Part shown: piece after piece, positions 494 to 8,855 of the stretch
How the letters are laid out: every line of letters begins with the position of its first letter
How positions within the stretch are numbered: position 1 is the first letter of the stretch
Virus record (IMG/VR): IMGVR_UViG_3300042914_001043
Coordinates: 1 to 24,569 of that record
Origin: a virus
Reading direction: 5' to 3' (one strand)
Length of the DNA: 24,569 nt
Position numbers and translations under genes: made by a program
Notes under the pieces: generated by a model
Databases searched by the model: none
The model's input: the letters and a program-made list of their open reading frames with translations, nothing else
What the model was told of the DNA's origin: nothing

Positions 494-2344
494 TTAGTTG
501 AGTGGGTCGCGGAGTCGGTTTTGGGCGATGGCCCGTAGTGCTGGTGACCACTTCTGGTTCTTGGCAGCGACGCCTCGTGCTCTGGCTTCTTCTCGGAACT
601 TGTTGGTGTCTTCTTGCACCATGCCAGGTTTGAGCTCAGGGAAGGCTTGCAGGATCTGTCTGGCGAGATTGTAGATGGGTTCGGTGAAGGTCTCAAGGGT
701 TTCTTTGAGCCGGATGGGGTTGTGGTCTTCTTCTAGTTGTTCTTCTATGAGTTCTACTTCGGTGGGTGCCCAGCCGATGCGTGAGAAGACTCGGGTGAGT
801 TTGATGGTGTGGCCGTCTCGTTGGAGGTGGTAGACGATGTCGACGTCGTCGTTCTTGGCTGATGAGCCTCGTTGGCCTTGGGTTTTGCCTTTGTCTTTGC
901 CTGCGTGGTCGGTGCGGAGGAGTGCGATGCCTGCGCCTTTGAGGGCGAGTCCTGTTGTCCTGGCGAACTCGCGGTAGGTGTCTGCTGAGTTCTCTTCGCC
1001 TTCTACGGCCCGCCCGGTGGTGTCGATGACTACCACTTGGGCTTGTGTGAGCTCTACGAGTTTCATGACGGCTGCTGCGCCTTCGTAGGTGTTGAGCGGT
1101 GGTAGGGATGGGATGAGGGCGTAGTGGAGGTGGGTAAGGTCGTCTTCTCGTGTGTAGCCAAGGTTGTCTAGGCGTTCCATCAGATCGGCTGCGGTCATTT
1201 CGTAGTCGAGGTAGAGGACGTGGACTTTGTCTTGTGCTGGGCGTCCGAAGATGGGTTTGCCTGTGGCGAGTGCTGCGACGCAGGCGAGGGCGATGTACGA
1301 CTTGCCTTCTTTGCTGACGGCGAATAGTGCGGTTTGTCTGCCGCGTGCGATGAGTGGGTAGGCAATCCAGTCTTCTGCTTTGTGGTCTTGGTTCCAGAAC
1401 TCTTGCCAGTTGACGAGTTGGGATAAGAGTTCGTCGGGTGTGCTGGTGGTGATGGTTGGGTTGAGGTTCATGTATTGGGCTGCTGCTTGTTTCCATGAGC
1501 CTTGGTGGTGTCGTTGGGCGTGGTAGCCGAAGCGTGAGTATCCGCCTTCGGGTACGGGTGCGTTGCTGCTGAAGACGATGAGTGCGTCGTTGCCGTTGTG
1601 GTTGAGGCTGGCGGAGATGCCTGTGGTTTTGCCTGGGCGTCGCCAGTATTCGGTTCCGTCTGTGCCTTGGTAGACGTAGGTCCATCCGTCTTGGGTGAGG
1701 ATGGTTTGCCAGTTGGTGTTGTTGTTGTAGCGGGCTGAGGGTGAGTTGGGGTCGGTAAGGAAGATGTCGCCGTCTGCTGGTCTTGTTCGGTCTATTTTTG
1801 GTTCGGCGGTGAGGCGTTTGATGAGCCAGTCGGGTGCGTCGGCTGGGAGGATGTCGGTGATGCCGAAGCCTTCTTCGAAGGTGTAGGGCTTGCCTATCGG
1901 GTGGAGTGTGGGTGGGGCGAGGACTTGGCCGCCGTCGCCTCGGATGTCGAGTCCTGGGCCGAGGCGTTTGCCTGCGTCGTTGCGGATAGCGATGGGTGTG
2001 GTGAAGTAGAGGTGGCGTCCGCCGGTTGGGGTGAGGACGGTGACGGTGTCGGGGAGTTTGCCGTGTTCAGCTTCTAGGTCGGCGAGTGTGTCTGATCCTG
2101 ATTGTTGTGGGTCGTGTTCGTCTATGTCAAGTACGAACACTTGGCGTGCGCCTGCTCGCCCGGTGCAGATGCCGACGCCCCATCCTTTGTAGGTGGTGGT
2201 GAACCATTGTTTGACGGTGTCGGTGTTGCTGGTGGCGATGGTTTGCCATGCTTCGATGCCGGCAGGGTATTTTTCTCCTGGCGCAATCGGTATGACTCGT
2301 ATGCCTCGTGATGCGTACAGCAGCGCGTTCTCTAACACTGTCAT
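494..2344 (-). CDS. Primase-polymerase/helicase fusion, replication protein
   Basis: A 616-residue replication protein. Residues 1-170 form a bifunctional primase-polymerase (AEP, Prim-Pol) domain: motif I 'VLDIDEHD' (71-78), motif II 'TPTGGRHLYF' (105-114) and motif III 'GLDIRGDGGQVLAPP' (131-145). Residues about 335-530 form a RepA/DnaB-like AAA ATPase: Walker A 'SKEGKS' (344-349), 'YLDYEM' (378-383), Walker B 'VVVID' (437-441), and a Ser/Gly/Lys-rich loop near 482-500. It should lay primers and unwind DNA at the phage fork. ATG at 2344, with a GGGAGA upstream as ribosome site. The C-terminal 75 residues are charged and unassigned. A 40-base gap separates it from the nuclease-like gene before it. 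No replicative polymerase is visible in the window. Confidence 0.92.
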   Translation of the reverse strand: MTVLENALLYASRGIRVIPIAPGEKYPAGIEAWQTIATSNTDTVKQWFTTTYKGWGVGICTGRAGARQVFVLDIDEHDPQQSGSDTLADLEAEHGKLPDTVTVLTPTGGRHLYFTTPIAIRNDAGKRLGPGLDIRGDGGQVLAPPTLHPIGKPYTFEEGFGITDILPADAPDWLIKRLTAEPKIDRTRPADGDIFLTDPNSPSARYNNNTNWQTILTQDGWTYVYQGTDGTEYWRRPGKTTGISASLNHNGNDALIVFSSNAPVPEGGYSRFGYHAQRHHQGSWKQAAAQYMNLNPTITTSTPDELLSQLVNWQEFWNQDHKAEDWIAYPLIARGRQTALFAVSKEGKSYIALACVAALATGKPIFGRPAQDKVHVLYLDYEMTAADLMERLDNLGYTREDDLTHLHYALIPSLPPLNTYEGAAAVMKLVELTQAQVVVIDTTGRAVEGEENSADTYREFARTTGLALKGAGIALLRTDHAGKDKGKTQGQRGSSAKNDDVDIVYHLQRDGHTIKLTRVFSRIGWAPTEVELIEEQLEEDHNPIRLKETLETFTEPIYNLARQILQAFPELKPGMVQEDTNKFREEARARGVAAKNQKWSPALRAIAQNRLRDPLN

Positions 2345-5450: not shown

Positions 5451-5850
5451 GAGTGTTCTCCTTGATGATGTAGTGGTTGCTTACTGGGATGTATTCGAGC
5501 ACGGCTCGCTCGGCGTAGATGTCCTGCAACGACGACCAAACACGTTCGGCGTCAATGTAGGACAGGTCTGCCAAGGCAAGCCCTGCACTTTGGTATTGCT
5601 TTCCGGTGCGATGCATACAAACGCTTCGCACTAGATCTTTGTCGATGTGGCCTTCTTGTTCTGCTATCTCTAGCAGGATTCGGGCGATGCCAACTCGTCG
5701 TTCGGTTGCTGGGGTCATGCTGATTGAGCCGAATGATTCATCGTTGATGTCGCGAATAGTTGTGCGGCATGGTTCGGGAATCATTTGGAATCGGGCAGAC
5801 AACAGCGAGACGTGTTTGGCGTCAACGAGTGCGCCTTCCGTGCGACTCAT
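5443..5850 (-). CDS. Phage protein of unknown function (135 aa)
   Basis: Not recognised. The start ATG at 5850 overlaps the RecB-like stop (ATGA). It is mostly helical after residue 45 ('ATERRVGIARILLEIAEQEGHIDKDL'), with two separate cysteines and a Tyr-rich C-terminal part. There is no membrane segment. It lies between the nuclease and the SSB-like gene, so a role in recombination or replication is suggested by context only. Confidence 0.65.
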   Translation of the reverse strand: MSRTEGALVDAKHVSLLSARFQMIPEPCRTTIRDINDESFGSISMTPATERRVGIARILLEIAEQEGHIDKDLVRSVCMHRTGKQYQSAGLALADLSYIDAERVWSSLQDIYAERAVLEYIPVSNHYIIKENTHG

Positions 5851-6986
5851 TTCTTCACCGCCTTCTTCTTGGCTGGTGCCTTCTTCTTGACTGGTGTGGC
5901 TGCGGCTTCGCTGATTGGTACGAGGTCGGGTTCACGGTTCGAGAGGAACGGTGCCGATGATTCGCGCTCCAACTCGTCCAACTGCTTCAGCAGCGTGTCA
6001 AGTTGTGCTTCGTTGAAGTCGGGCAGTTTGACACCTGGGTATGGCCAGTGACGCTTCAACAGGTCCTGCCATGTTGTGGGCAGGTTCTTGATGCGTTCCA
6101 AGGCCGTGTCACGGTTGTGGTCTGGTGCTGCAGAGGTGGCGACACCCGCTGTGGGCGGAATCCCGTCGTTGGCCGCCACCTCCGCATGCACTTTGATGTG
6201 CAGGTCTTTACGTTTGCGCCAGGTGCGAACAGCCATTGCCATTTGTGCTGCTTCCCATCCGGCGACGAGGTCTACTTCGTAGAGGGCGAGGGTGCCTTGG
6301 CCTGCTGGGAGGTGGAGGATGACGCCACGAGTTTTGTCAATGTCTGGCATCGGGATGTGTTCTTGGGTGCGCCAGTCGTAGATGTAATCAGCGTTGGCAT
6401 ACATTGCCATCTGAACTGCGATGGCGTTCATGGCGTAGTCAATGGAACCTGTTTTCAAGTCAAAGATTTGTTTCTTCTTGCGGGTGGAGAAGCGTGCGAT
6501 GCGGTCGGCTGTGCCCGCGTACTCATACTTCTCGTTGACGAGCAATACTTCAACGAAGCGTGGGTCGATGATGACGCCGTGTTGGGTGATGCCTGTGGTG
6601 TAGGCGTTGACGTCGGTTTGGAGTCCTGGGAGGATTGCTGGTTGTTGGCCGAGGTCGAGTGCTTGGGTGAGTGAGTGGAGTGCGGTGCCGATGTTTGCTT
6701 TGCTTGATGCACCTGCCGCTTCGATGGCTTGTTGCACGATGCGATCCAACGCACCTTTGTCTTCTAGTGCTGCTGATGCTGCGACGAGCAGGTCGTTGCG
6801 ATGCACGAGTCCTGTCGCAGTCATGCGACCCTTCCATGCTGTCAGTGCACCTTCATCGTCCAAACATTTGGCGATGGTGGTGACACGCGGGAACGATGTT
6901 TCTTTCCCTGTGCGTGTCTTGATGAGGTAGCGACCCCAACGGTCTTTGGGTGCTTCACCCGTGGTGAATGTGTCGGCGGTAGTCAT
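5847..6986 (-). CDS. RecB/Cas4-like PD-(D/E)XK exonuclease
   Basis: A 379-residue nuclease of the PD-(D/E)XK superfamily, like the RecB/Cas4-type exonucleases of actinophages, which process DNA ends for recombination. Motifs: H104 in 'TALHSL', D161 in 'AGTADRI', D176-x-K178 in 'FDLKTG', and the helix 'AVQMAMYANA' (190-199) with the conserved Gln. I see no four-Cys cluster, so it probably lacks the Fe-S site of true Cas4. The last 15 residues are a Lys/Ala/Pro tail ('KKKAPAKKKAVKK') like a histone tail, probably for DNA contact. The ATG at 6986 has AAGGAG 7 bases upstream and follows the promoter at 7035-7063. Confidence 0.88.
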   Translation of the reverse strand: MTTADTFTTGEAPKDRWGRYLIKTRTGKETSFPRVTTIAKCLDDEGALTAWKGRMTATGLVHRNDLLVAASAALEDKGALDRIVQQAIEAAGASSKANIGTALHSLTQALDLGQQPAILPGLQTDVNAYTTGITQHGVIIDPRFVEVLLVNEKYEYAGTADRIARFSTRKKKQIFDLKTGSIDYAMNAIAVQMAMYANADYIYDWRTQEHIPMPDIDKTRGVILHLPAGQGTLALYEVDLVAGWEAAQMAMAVRTWRKRKDLHIKVHAEVAANDGIPPTAGVATSAAPDHNRDTALERIKNLPTTWQDLLKRHWPYPGVKLPDFNEAQLDTLLKQLDELERESSAPFLSNREPDLVPISEAAATPVKKKAPAKKKAVKK

Positions 6987-7063: not shown

Positions 7064-7391
7064 GCATCCTTAGAAGTTCGGCCCACAACTTGGCAGGCAT
7101 GATGGCATACCAGTCGTCAACGTCTTCTGATCCACGGCGTTTGACGATGACTGCCCCAGTCCAAGCACGGGCGTTGCCCATCTCGGCTTCAAGCTCTCGC
7201 AGGTAGCCAGGTAGGTCAATCTTCTTCTCGTTCTTGACTTCGATACATACGCCTGGCAGGCCGTCGATGTCGCCTCGGTCATCAGTCCAACCGGCACGAC
7301 TCCGCTCAGCGTTCACCCATCCGTACTTTCGTAGCCATTTGGCTACTAGAAGCTCTGCTCGGTTGCCTTTGCGTTTATTTGGATGGGCCAC
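7038..7391 (-). CDS. Holliday junction resolvase-like PD-(D/E)XK nuclease
   Basis: About 117 residues from the GTG at 7391, which lies over the end of the WhiB gene and has AGGA 9 bases before it; 'HPNKRKGNRAE' then forms the N-terminus as in related nucleases. The PD-(D/E)XK set is complete: E13 ('GNRAEL'), D41 ('RGDIDG'), E51 and K53 ('CIEVKN'). This is the order of Hjc-type resolvases and of small phage resolvases that cut branched DNA before packaging. The longer frame to 7445 is out-of-gene reading through WhiB. The RecB-like gene follows. Confidence 0.75.
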   Translation of the reverse strand: MAHPNKRKGNRAELLVAKWLRKYGWVNAERSRAGWTDDRGDIDGLPGVCIEVKNEKKIDLPGYLRELEAEMGNARAWTGAVIVKRRGSEDVDDWYAIMPAKLWAELLRMLDRPTPPR

Positions 7392-7671
7392 GACTACAAA
7401 TCCTACGACGCAGCTCACGGCGTCTTTCGGTGGTGGTCGTACCACCCCAGATGCCTACCTCTTCGTTCTTGATTGCGTGCTCAAGACAATCAACACGCAC
7501 CGGGCACCTGTTGCAATACGTCTTGGCTTCAATCACTAGTCGTCGCACACCTTCCTCGAAGAACAGATCGCCTGACAGACCGAAGCAGGTTGCAAGTCGA
7601 TACCACTTCGGGTGTGCCCCGATGTAGACGTTGTCTTCGTTGGACCAGTTAGCGATTGGTTCGTCGGTCAT
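7375..7671 (-). CDS. WhiB-family Fe-S transcription regulator
   Basis: A 98-residue protein with the WhiB signature: C29, then C53-x2-C56-x5-C62 ('CNRCPVRVDCLEHA'), which bind a [4Fe-4S] cluster, then 'EVGIWGGTT' (71-79), the G(V/I)WGG turn, and a basic C-terminus 'ERRRELRRR' for DNA. WhiB proteins are confined to actinobacteria and their phages, so this is the best host marker here. Phage WhiB proteins such as that of mycobacteriophage TM4 can alter host septation and exclude superinfection. The ATG at 7671 has AGGA shortly upstream and overlaps the membrane protein gene by 23 bases. Confidence 0.95.
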   Translation of the reverse strand: MTDEPIANWSNEDNVYIGAHPKWYRLATCFGLSGDLFFEEGVRRLVIEAKTYCNRCPVRVDCLEHAIKNEEVGIWGGTTTTERRRELRRRICSRGPSK

Positions 7672-7891
7672 GTTTCCTGAGCGAATCTTTGATGTGTTGA
7701 CTTTGTTTGTCTTGTTTGTCTTGCGACAACCATTTGACCACGAAGTACAGCGACACCACTTGGGTGGTGATAAAGAACAACCACTCGAATCGTGTGATTG
7801 TTTCCTCGGGGAACCTTGGCATAAACAACCAAACGATTGTCCATGCCAACATGATTGGTCCTACGATGACCACTTTTTCCATCGGTTTCAT
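7649..7891 (-). CDS. Small membrane protein (80 aa, two TM segments)
   Basis: Two hydrophobic helices ('VIVGPIMLAWTIVWLFM', about 7-23, and 'WLFFITTQVVSLYFVVKWL', about 37-55) are followed by a charged, Lys/Asp/Arg-rich cytoplasmic tail. The ATG at 7891 has AAAGGAGG 4-5 bases upstream, a strong ribosome site. It lies between the secreted lytic enzyme and WhiB, so a holin or lysis-regulator role is possible, but small membrane proteins of other kinds cannot be excluded. Confidence 0.7.
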   Translation of the reverse strand: MKPMEKVVIVGPIMLAWTIVWLFMPRFPEETITRFEWLFFITTQVVSLYFVVKWLSQDKQDKQSQHIKDSLRKHDRRTNR

Positions 7892-7926
7892 ACAGCCTCC
7901 TTTTGGCTGAATGCGACCTTACGGCA

Positions 7927-8454
7927 CTACTGGGTCAAGGTGTTGGATGCCAGTTTGTGGGTTGTCCACTGAGTCCAGGTGCCGTACTCCCAGATGGCGA
8001 GGGCGGCCCGAGCTGCGGTGGGCGGATCTAGCAAGTTATCGCAAGTGCTAACAAGTCCGATGGTCTGTAGATAGCCGTCTGGGTAGTACTTGCTGGGCAG
8101 GCACCAGGACTTGGTGTGGATTTGGAACGCAGTCCAACTGATGCCGTTGTCGCCTCGGACATCCATCCGGCATCGGGACTCGAAGTAGGTGACTGCCCCA
8201 ACCATTGGCAACTCGGCTTCAGGCCAGCCAACCTCACGGGCTAGGTCTATCCACCCTGGGCAGGATTGGCCGTCAGGCGTCTCCAAATCGCGTAGGAGAG
8301 GCTCTGCTGGCTGTGCTGGGGCAAGTGTCGTGGTTGTCACTGGAACGCTTGTAGAAGCCTGTGGTGAGGTTTCTGGGGCGTCTGCGGCTATCGCTGGGAC
8401 AAGCCCAAGCAGAGCCCCGAAGGCAATGGCTAGGGCGATGGTGAGGGTCTTCAT
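7927..8454 (-). CDS. Secreted transglycosylase/lysozyme-fold endolysin
   Basis: A 175-residue protein. Residues 1-24 are a Sec signal peptide ('LTIALAIAFGALLGLVPAIAA'); 25-52 form a Thr/Pro linker ('VPVTTTTLAPAQPAEP'); 60-165 form a lytic-transglycosylase-like domain with 'AVTYFESRCRMD' (catalytic Glu probably E92), 'GISWTAFQIHT' (104-114) and a helix 'AARAALAIWEYGTW'. Four cysteines (65, 95, 118, 138) suggest disulfides formed outside the cell. It probably cleaves the glycan chain, either as a Sec-exported endolysin that does not need a holin hole or as an entry/secreted enzyme. AAGGGA stands 9 bases before the ATG at 8454. It follows the structured 140-base gap at 8455-8594. Confidence 0.85.
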   Translation of the reverse strand: MKTLTIALAIAFGALLGLVPAIAADAPETSPQASTSVPVTTTTLAPAQPAEPLLRDLETPDGQSCPGWIDLAREVGWPEAELPMVGAVTYFESRCRMDVRGDNGISWTAFQIHTKSWCLPSKYYPDGYLQTIGLVSTCDNLLDPPTAARAALAIWEYGTWTQWTTHKLASNTLTQ

Positions 8455-8560
8455 GAGTGGTAATCCCTTCAGGATGTAACCGCATCAGCCAAGGAGGAAA
8501 CTGATGCGGGGCCGTCAACTCTTTTCCCGCCGAGGCAGAGGACTGACCACTGCCCAGCAT
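8273..8560 (-). CDS. Doubtful ORF with strong ribosome site overlapping the endolysin
   Basis: The ATG at 8560 has AAGGAGG 8 bases upstream, one of the best ribosome sites in the window. The frame stays open to 8273, but after codon 35 it runs in the +1 frame over the endolysin gene, where it becomes Arg/Ser/Pro-rich as expected for a shadow frame. The first 35 residues ('PPWLMRLHPEG' and so on) cross no other gene. It may be a short leader whose translation opens the hairpin at 8480-8509, or not a gene at all. Confidence 0.3.
   Translation of the reverse strand: MLGSGQSSASAGKELTAPHQFPPWLMRLHPEGITTHEDPHHRPSHCLRGSAWACPSDSRRRPRNLTTGFYKRSSDNHDTCPSTASRASPTRFGDA
8480..8509 (-). promoter_or_regulatory. 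Hairpin exposing an anti-Shine-Dalgarno loop
   Basis: CCGCATCAG (8480-8488) and CTGATGCGG (8501-8509) form a perfect 9-bp stem. In the leftward RNA the 12-base loop reads UUUCCUCCUUGG. This loop is complementary over 9 bases to the loop of the hairpin at 8564-8584, and it also resembles the 3' end of 16S rRNA. It lies 26 bases before the endolysin ATG. No T-run follows. Confidence 0.6.
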
Positions 8561-8563
8561 ACT

Positions 8564-8584
8564 GGACACCTCCTTGGGATGTCC
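8564..8584 (-). promoter_or_regulatory. Hairpin carrying a Shine-Dalgarno in its loop
   Basis: In the leftward RNA, GGACA (8584-8580) pairs with UGUCC (8568-8564), leaving loop UCCCAAGGAGG with the ribosome site AAGGAGG (8575-8569) for the ATG at 8560. The stem is short (5 bp) and competes with an alternative pairing CUUGG/CCAAG (8587-8573). The loop can pair over 9 bases with the loop at 8489-8497. Confidence 0.45.
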
Positions 8585-8594
8585 AAGCCGAACC

Positions 8595-8855
8595 CTACCT
8601 GAAGTCGGTGGGGAGGACAATCCTTATCTTGACGACCATTCCGACCGGGACGCACAGCACCCCGTCAACGGAATGGTCAACGCCGATGCTTTGGGCGAGC
8701 ACGACGTGGTCGGGTTTGGCGTCTGTCATCAGCCAGCCTATGGATTTCACTTGGTATGACTCTTGGTCTAGGTCCTCGATGTCCATCCAGGCGTTCTCAG
8801 CGTGGGCATCCAGCCAGGTCAGTTCAACTATTTTGGCGTTACTCAGGTCAGCCAT
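8595..8855 (-). CDS. Phage protein of unknown function (86 aa)
   Basis: Not assigned. The ATG at 8855 overlaps the phosphoesterase end by 13 bases. It is mainly beta: 'IVELTWLDAHAENAWMDIEDLD', 'YQVKSIGWLMTDAKPDHVVLAQSIG' and 'VLCVPVGMVVKIRIVL'. I recall small conserved phage proteins of this pattern, usually annotated as hypothetical. There is no signal peptide or membrane helix. Confidence 0.7.
   Translation of the reverse strand: MADLSNAKIVELTWLDAHAENAWMDIEDLDQESYQVKSIGWLMTDAKPDHVVLAQSIGVDHSVDGVLCVPVGMVVKIRIVLPTDFR

Follow-up and report, generated by a model that had tools for sequence, protein, structure and literature searches.

What could two complementary RNA loops be doing just upstream of a phage lysin gene? 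The window, a linear virus record of 24.6 kb, carries on its leftward strand the stretches CCAAGGAGG (8577-8569) and CCTCCTTGG (8497-8489), which an initial annotation had placed in the loops of two hairpins. Both stretches lie exactly where they had been reported. Hairpin 1, GGACATCCCAAGGAGGTGTCC (8584-8564, minus strand), can fold into a hairpin of 5 bp whose loop contains AAGGAGG. Hairpin 2, CCGCATCAG-TTTCCTCCTTGG-CTGATGCGG (8509-8480, minus strand), is a perfect 9-bp hairpin that we name P3. CCAAGGAGG and the P3 loop, CCUCCUUGG, pair over 9 bp with a free-duplex energy of -15.4 kcal/mol, and the region folds more stably than its shuffled counterparts (z = -2.45). When the 161-nt region was shuffled 5000 times with its dinucleotides preserved, a 9-nt inverted repeat arose in 210 shuffles, and both arms fell inside hairpin loops in 15; the single sequence is therefore suggestive, above chance without being overwhelming. 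The hairpins and their complementary loops were thus described correctly. Their significance comes from sequence comparison with relatives: CCUCCUUGG is unchanged in every relative found; CAAGGAGG, the core of the opposing loop, is unchanged in lineage 1 only.

This comparison reveals a structured RNA element of about 70 nt, composed of a stem with a single bulge (P1), an inner hairpin (P2), and hairpin P3. Relatives were obtained via neighboring proteins and pattern scans across viral contigs, and alignment places the RNA in about 58 viral contigs that fall into three lineages. In lineage 1, the intergenic block is found in 41 contigs plus the window, with 22 distinct cores; L166 and L182 carry a divergent form of it. 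A covariance model built from lineage 1 (R1) detects lineage 2 (L073-L077 and L098; E-values of 3e-7 to 4e-5), which has further members in L162, L163, L169, L172, L173, L177, L179, L180, L183, and L184, several of them the same contigs as L073-L077 and L098. Lineage 3 consists of L188, L191, L193, and L194. In the opposite direction, a model built from lineages 2 and 3 alone (R2) recovers lineage 1, the window included, with E-values of 1e-9 to 8e-5. On the window itself R2 scores 22.3 bits, the level of the best chance matches in 151 bacterial genomes (22.5-23 bits), so the case rests on syntenic place and on the other members, which reach 29-40 bits. Pattern matches in bacterial genomes (L185-L187) were rejected because the fold is absent, and two model matches (L200, L201) from a set of 151 genomes, all of one bacterial class, were dismissed as chance, with broken stems and no CCUCCUU-loop hairpin. 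The same holds for the pattern matches L161, L164, L165, L167, L168, L170, L171, L174-L176, L178, L181, L189, L190, L192, L195, and L196, which do not combine P1 and P3 with an anti-Shine-Dalgarno loop.

All relatives are metagenomic contigs, and these phages are known from metagenomes alone. INPHARED cultured phages gave no real match to the element DNA, the lysozyme, or the holin-like protein described below; only the phosphoesterase has relatives among them, including a 60% identical one in the lake Actinomycetia phage DSL-LC01. Together with a WhiB gene, this phosphoesterase is our sole guide to the hosts, which are probably aquatic Actinobacteria. Neither model finds a family member in the more distant phages that share the phosphoesterase or lysozyme (L031-L038, L067-L072, and L078-L118 except L098).

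The P1/P2 unit, a third covarying element that lies between the two hairpins, had been missed in the initial annotation. In the window, the P1 5′ strand GGUCAGUC (8541-8548) pairs with the 3′ strand GACGGCC (8510-8516), P2 (CUCU ... AGAG) occupies 8519-8540, and P3 (8480-8509) presents the anti-Shine-Dalgarno (anti-SD) loop CCUCCUUGG at 8489-8497, all on the minus strand. P1 occurs in nine distinct versions over the three lineages, and all of them pair around a single bulge at position 4 or 5. Most of lineage 1 has GGY(N)RGUC/GACYRCC, lineage 2 has GGC(U)GAUC/GAUCGCC, lineage 3 has GGAU(C)GUC/GACAUCC, and L166 has GGAG(C)GUC/GACCUCC. P2 varies freely in sequence yet is always a hairpin; CUCG/CGAG, CUCU/AGAG, and CUCU/GGAG are pairing variants, and lineages 2 and 3 have AACCC/GGGUU, AGCCC/GGGCU, or AGCGCA/UGCGCU in its place. 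P3 shows at least five different stems, among them CCGCAUCAG/CUGAUGCGG, CCGCACAG/CUGUGCGG (in which one pair is lost in coupled fashion), CCGCACCAG/CUGGUGCGG, CGCACACC/GGUGUGCG, and CGCACCCC/GGGGUGCG, and one loop, made of pyrimidines followed by CUCCUUGG. In lineage 1, 96% of cells are paired and 24 are double-changed, against a shuffle mean of 8.6, and pairing collapses when the partners are slid; in lineages 2 and 3, 98% of cells are paired. P1 pairing also holds across all lineages combined, counted on rows trimmed to the element at fixed anchors (A8), a procedure that favors the structure somewhat; such rows were used because MAFFT cross-lineage alignments misplace P1 and P3. P1, P2, and P3 all retain U-G pairs, which would turn into A.C mismatches if the opposite strand were the RNA; they identify the leftward RNA as the functional one. 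By its alignment, this is a new and well-supported RNA family with a fixed gene context, uncatalogued in Rfam: the whole window matched no Rfam 15 family at the gathering threshold, its 300-nt core matched nothing up to an E-value of 10, and lineage 2 and 3 members gave chance-level matches only.

The paired changes that the initial annotation suggested looking for in both hairpins are thus seen in hairpin 2, whose stem is compensated under an invariant loop, but not in hairpin 1 (8564-8584, minus strand). By its pair counts in lineage 1, the latter is weak and not generally conserved: 83% of its cells are paired, the outermost pair fails in 9/20, and the innermost in 8/20. Hairpin 1 and AAGGAGG are lineage-1 features, missing in lineages 2 and 3, which retain the rest of the RNA. 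A promoter scan of the 300-bp region returned TGGACA-18-TATGCT (8585-8556) as its sole match, agreeing at 9 of 12 positions, with one found against 0.1 expected. The -35-like TGGACA (8580-8585, minus strand) is a clear match in lineage 1 alone, where GACA is kept in most members. The -10-like TATGCT (8556-8561, minus strand) also appears as TAGGCT, TAAGAT, and TAGACT, all of which fit TANNNT, and it stands exactly 7 nt before P1 in every member of all lineages. Those 7 nt are unconserved in sequence, and a fixed, sequence-free gap is what a -10 element followed by its discriminator should give. The predicted RNA 5′ end would be at ~8549/8548. Because AAGGAGG lies between the -35 and -10 elements, an RNA from the predicted promoter would be without it; if this promoter is used, AAGGAGG and the ATG at 8560 (within TATGCT) would be promoter DNA and would appear as RNA only in read-through transcripts.

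These observations bear directly on the mechanism first proposed, a cis kissing-loop that hides the ribosome site of the ATG at 8560 and so times the endolysin. Its appeal lies in the looped 9-bp complementarity, so rare among the shuffles, and in the invariance of CAAGGAGG (8569-8576, minus strand), which is unchanged in 20 distinct lineage-1 rows and reads CAAAGGAGG in L166/L182. In lineage 1 the helix between the two loops is invariant and so yields no covariation. The ATG is not conserved, being TAG in 12/20 distinct lineage-1 relatives (ACTAGGCT), and a leader peptide from this start was rejected for the same reason. With AAGGAGG also upstream of the predicted RNA start, absent together with hairpin 1 from lineages 2 and 3, and with a lysozyme SD that matches the loop poorly, we consider this kissing-loop extremely improbable. 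Chance, which the annotation had set against a cis switch, has become the less likely explanation in view of the shuffles and the invariant CCUCCUUGG, yet a kissing-loop switch is not what evolution keeps. In some lineage-1 members, such as L124 (about 1348-1450, plus strand), the ATG contained in TATGCT reads without a stop into the lysozyme frame, a possible N-terminal extension that is likely accidental because the frame differs in the window.

In lineage 1, CAAGGAGGYGTCCA is strictly conserved, beyond what a promoter needs. We propose that in read-through RNA it acts as a decoy that engages the P3 loop; the alternative is an operator. At the DNA level, CCAAGGAGG and CCTCCTTGG could be an operator pair bound by a phage regulator around the promoter, one arm in the spacer and the other some 50-60 bp past the predicted start, which would account for a spacer block conserved beyond promoter needs. 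The second arm, however, falls exactly in the loop of a covarying RNA hairpin with U-G pairs, and lineages 2 and 3 lack the first arm, leaving an operator pair very unlikely.

If neither a kissing-loop over the ATG nor an operator explains the invariant loop, its gene context offers other candidates. By gene order, the RNA stands at the head of a lysis cassette, followed by a lysozyme gene and a holin-like gene. A small conserved ORF (8595-8855, minus strand), syntenic in lineages 1 and 3, lies upstream. Directly downstream is the gene for a secreted lysozyme-like protein of 175 aa (7927-8454, minus strand), led by the weak SD GAAGGGA. SLT_3 is found in 15 of 16 members of this protein family (best E-value 8.6e-12), and the protein matches the insect c-type lysozyme 2fbd by PDB profile (E-value 7e-9) and by Foldseek (E-value 3e-4). 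In profile and fold, the window lysin is closest to animal c-type lysozymes (Musca domestica 2fbd), not to common phage endolysins. Its start is a TTG behind a GGAAGGA SD in lineages 2 and 3 (L197/L184, L188, L194), versus ATG in lineage 1. The following gene (7649-7891, minus strand) encodes 80 aa with two hydrophobic segments and a basic tail. Two transmembrane segments and a charged C-terminus next to an endolysin gene are the hydropathy and synteny of a two-transmembrane holin; the protein matched none of the holin family profiles, and we call it holin-like by position and topology, with holin function presumed.

The RNA and the holin-like gene travel together. Among the fetched lysozyme loci, both are present in 99 and neither in 30, and the nine exceptions are all cut contigs, eight RNA-only ones that end before the gene is complete and one holin-only (L199) that begins inside the lysozyme; the loci behind these counts (99/30/8/1) overlap in contigs and are not independent, and the linkage, drawn from related lineages, may represent one or few events. 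A WhiB-type regulator (7375-7671, minus strand) lies directly downstream of the cassette in the window. In loci that have neither the RNA nor the holin-like gene, the downstream gene, where it was read, is WhiB-like and comes immediately or almost immediately after the lysozyme. The non-coding gap before the lysozyme in two contigs without the RNA (L085, 4138-4457, and L092, 3582-3901, both plus strand) contains other hairpin-like repeats (AACCCTTAC ... GTAAGGG-like), which could be a different leader RNA.

In all lineages the element lies some 25-40 nt upstream of the lysozyme start, a placement that would suit a 5′ leader element in the lysis mRNA. A protein (a ribosomal protein or a phage regulator) would read its P3 loop, or the loop would protect the mRNA, and the anti-SD look would be incidental. 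Protein sites, too, typically combine a constant loop with a stem that varies. Against a coincidence, the loop matches the anti-SD exactly in otherwise diverged lineages and co-occurs with an AAGGAGG-led gene; we regard a protein-read leader as rather unlikely. The idea that the RNA times the endolysin survives in part: a selected anti-SD-loop RNA does precede a lysozyme-type lysin and probably serves lysis control, but the lysozyme SD is weak, variable, and poorly matched to the P3 loop. The SD that best fits the anti-SD idea is that of the next gene, which encodes the holin-like membrane protein.

This SD is AAGGAGG in every holin-like gene seen, in all lineages. In the window it occupies 7902-7896 within the hairpin CAGCC-AAAAGGA-GGCUG (7893-7909, minus strand), the proposed target of the P3 loop. 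The hairpin takes the form CC(C)-n-AAGGA-GG(G), with a compensated change from CCC/GGG to GCC/GGC in the window, and the closing CC is present at 24/24 distinct holin-like SD sites versus 15/38 other AAGGAGG starts. Ranked by loop pairing, the holin-like gene comes first or second of about 20 genes in 10 of the 13 contigs scored, with the lysozyme start far lower, a rank that partly reflects a good SD since the P3 loop matches any strong one; among the 36 genes scored in the window, its place is 7th. The loop and the SD core never vary, which leaves their pairing without covariation support, and no covariation was seen between the loop flanks and the holin SD flanks. Among window genes, the SD of an exonuclease-like gene (phrog_466; 5847-6986, minus strand), CCAAGGAGAAAAC/CCAAGGAG/ACCAAGGAGAAAACG, pairs best with the P3 loop (CCAAGGAGAAAAC, -17.1 kcal/mol, against -11.4 for the holin-like gene) and is a second candidate target. 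The syntenic exonuclease-like gene of lineages 2 and 3 has the SD (A)AGGAGG, in lineage 2 often inside GCC...GGC.

The better fit of this gene in the window keeps a broader reading a serious rival, in which the element is a trans-acting general anti-SD sRNA whose P3 loop pairs with many strong SDs, on host or early phage mRNAs, and shifts translation late in infection, its nearness to the lysis genes reflecting late co-expression only. The loop is a perfect anti-SD, like that of 16S rRNA, the predicted promoter of its own stands at a fixed distance, several phage genes led by an AAGGAG(G) SD match the loop equally well or better, and the alpha-r14 sRNAs show invariant CCUCCUCCC loops, changing stems, and many predicted targets (PMC10746234). 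Yet no terminator-like hairpin with a U-run was found after P3, strict linkage to lysozyme and holin-like genes is unexpected of a trans regulator, and late phage genes use the same type of SD. We judge a general sRNA possible, though on the unlikely side.

The reading that we tentatively favor, at somewhat less than an even chance, is that the P3 loop caps the SD of the holin-like gene and delays lysis, from an element at the head of the cassette with its own predicted promoter. From that promoter the RNA would be made either as a short transcript or as the leader of the lysis mRNA. The P3 loop CCUCCUUGG is an anti-SD, a copy of the ribosome's own mRNA-recognition sequence, that would be held out for pairing, and its likeliest partner would be the AAGGAGG hairpin of the holin-like gene, some 570-610 nt farther downstream, reached in cis or in trans. 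Pairing of the loop would keep ribosomes off the holin-like gene, and lysis would be delayed while the poorly matching lysozyme is made. In lineage 1, read-through transcripts from upstream would carry CAAGGAGG (8576-8569), and this decoy may fill the P3 loop in cis and release the holin-like gene. Anti-SD mimic and promoter-spacer decoy would together make an RNA lysis clock in which the choice of transcription start sets holin translation, an extension that we offer as a speculation with a small chance of being right. Holin proteins and their inhibitors are the usual explanation for when lysis occurs. The timing of the host-cell burst may also be set in part by an anti-SD RNA that controls holin translation from the head of the cassette, which, if true, would add RNA as a further layer to the lysis clock of phages that infect uncultivated aquatic bacteria. 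Whatever the mechanism, the new structured RNA family offers a single testable loop.

We know of no earlier description of a lysis-cassette anti-SD RNA in the open-access literature searched, and the closest known systems each share one part of the picture. PAK_P4as15 is a phage cis transcript of about 550 nt, antisense to the endolysin gene, that is thought to delay lysis (PMC12197685); our element would likewise be a phage RNA that delays lysis, but PAK_P4as15 is a long cis antisense RNA with no structured anti-SD element. In the T4 gene e (lysozyme) leader, the 5′ arm of an inhibitory structure contains a promoter, SD access depends on the transcript start, and the long transcript is repressed by a local stem at the lysozyme SD (PMC3014915). 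Access to the SD of a lysis gene would be tied to the transcript start site in both systems, and in lineage 1 the predicted promoter spans CAAGGAGG, a candidate for such an arm that lineages 2 and 3 lack. Here, in contrast, we propose that the long transcript is the relieved one and that the target is the gene after the lysozyme; the SD of the lysozyme itself is weak, variable, and too poor a match to the loop to be sequestered by it. The C-rich hairpin loops of Staphylococcus aureus RNAIII pair with G-rich SD regions of its targets, partly by loop-loop contacts (PMC2837412); a C-rich loop set against an SD is common to both, whereas RNAIII is a far longer quorum-sensing effector of unrelated structure. 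The alpha-r14/cuckoo sRNAs of alpha-proteobacteria carry CCUCCUCCC anti-SD loops with a proposed SD-directed antisense control (PMC10746234), and they too keep the anti-SD motif invariant in a hairpin loop while the stems are replaced, as P3 does here with compensation. Those are chromosomal trans sRNAs with three hairpins that each bear CCUCCUCCC, whereas the present element has one anti-SD loop of other sequence, a bulged P1 stem, a place in a phage lysis cassette, and no Rfam match. By analogy, the element would work like the C-rich-loop anti-SD RNAs, yet it lacks some defining features of each of RNAIII, alpha-r14/cuckoo, and T4 gene e, and we therefore file it as a new RNA family.
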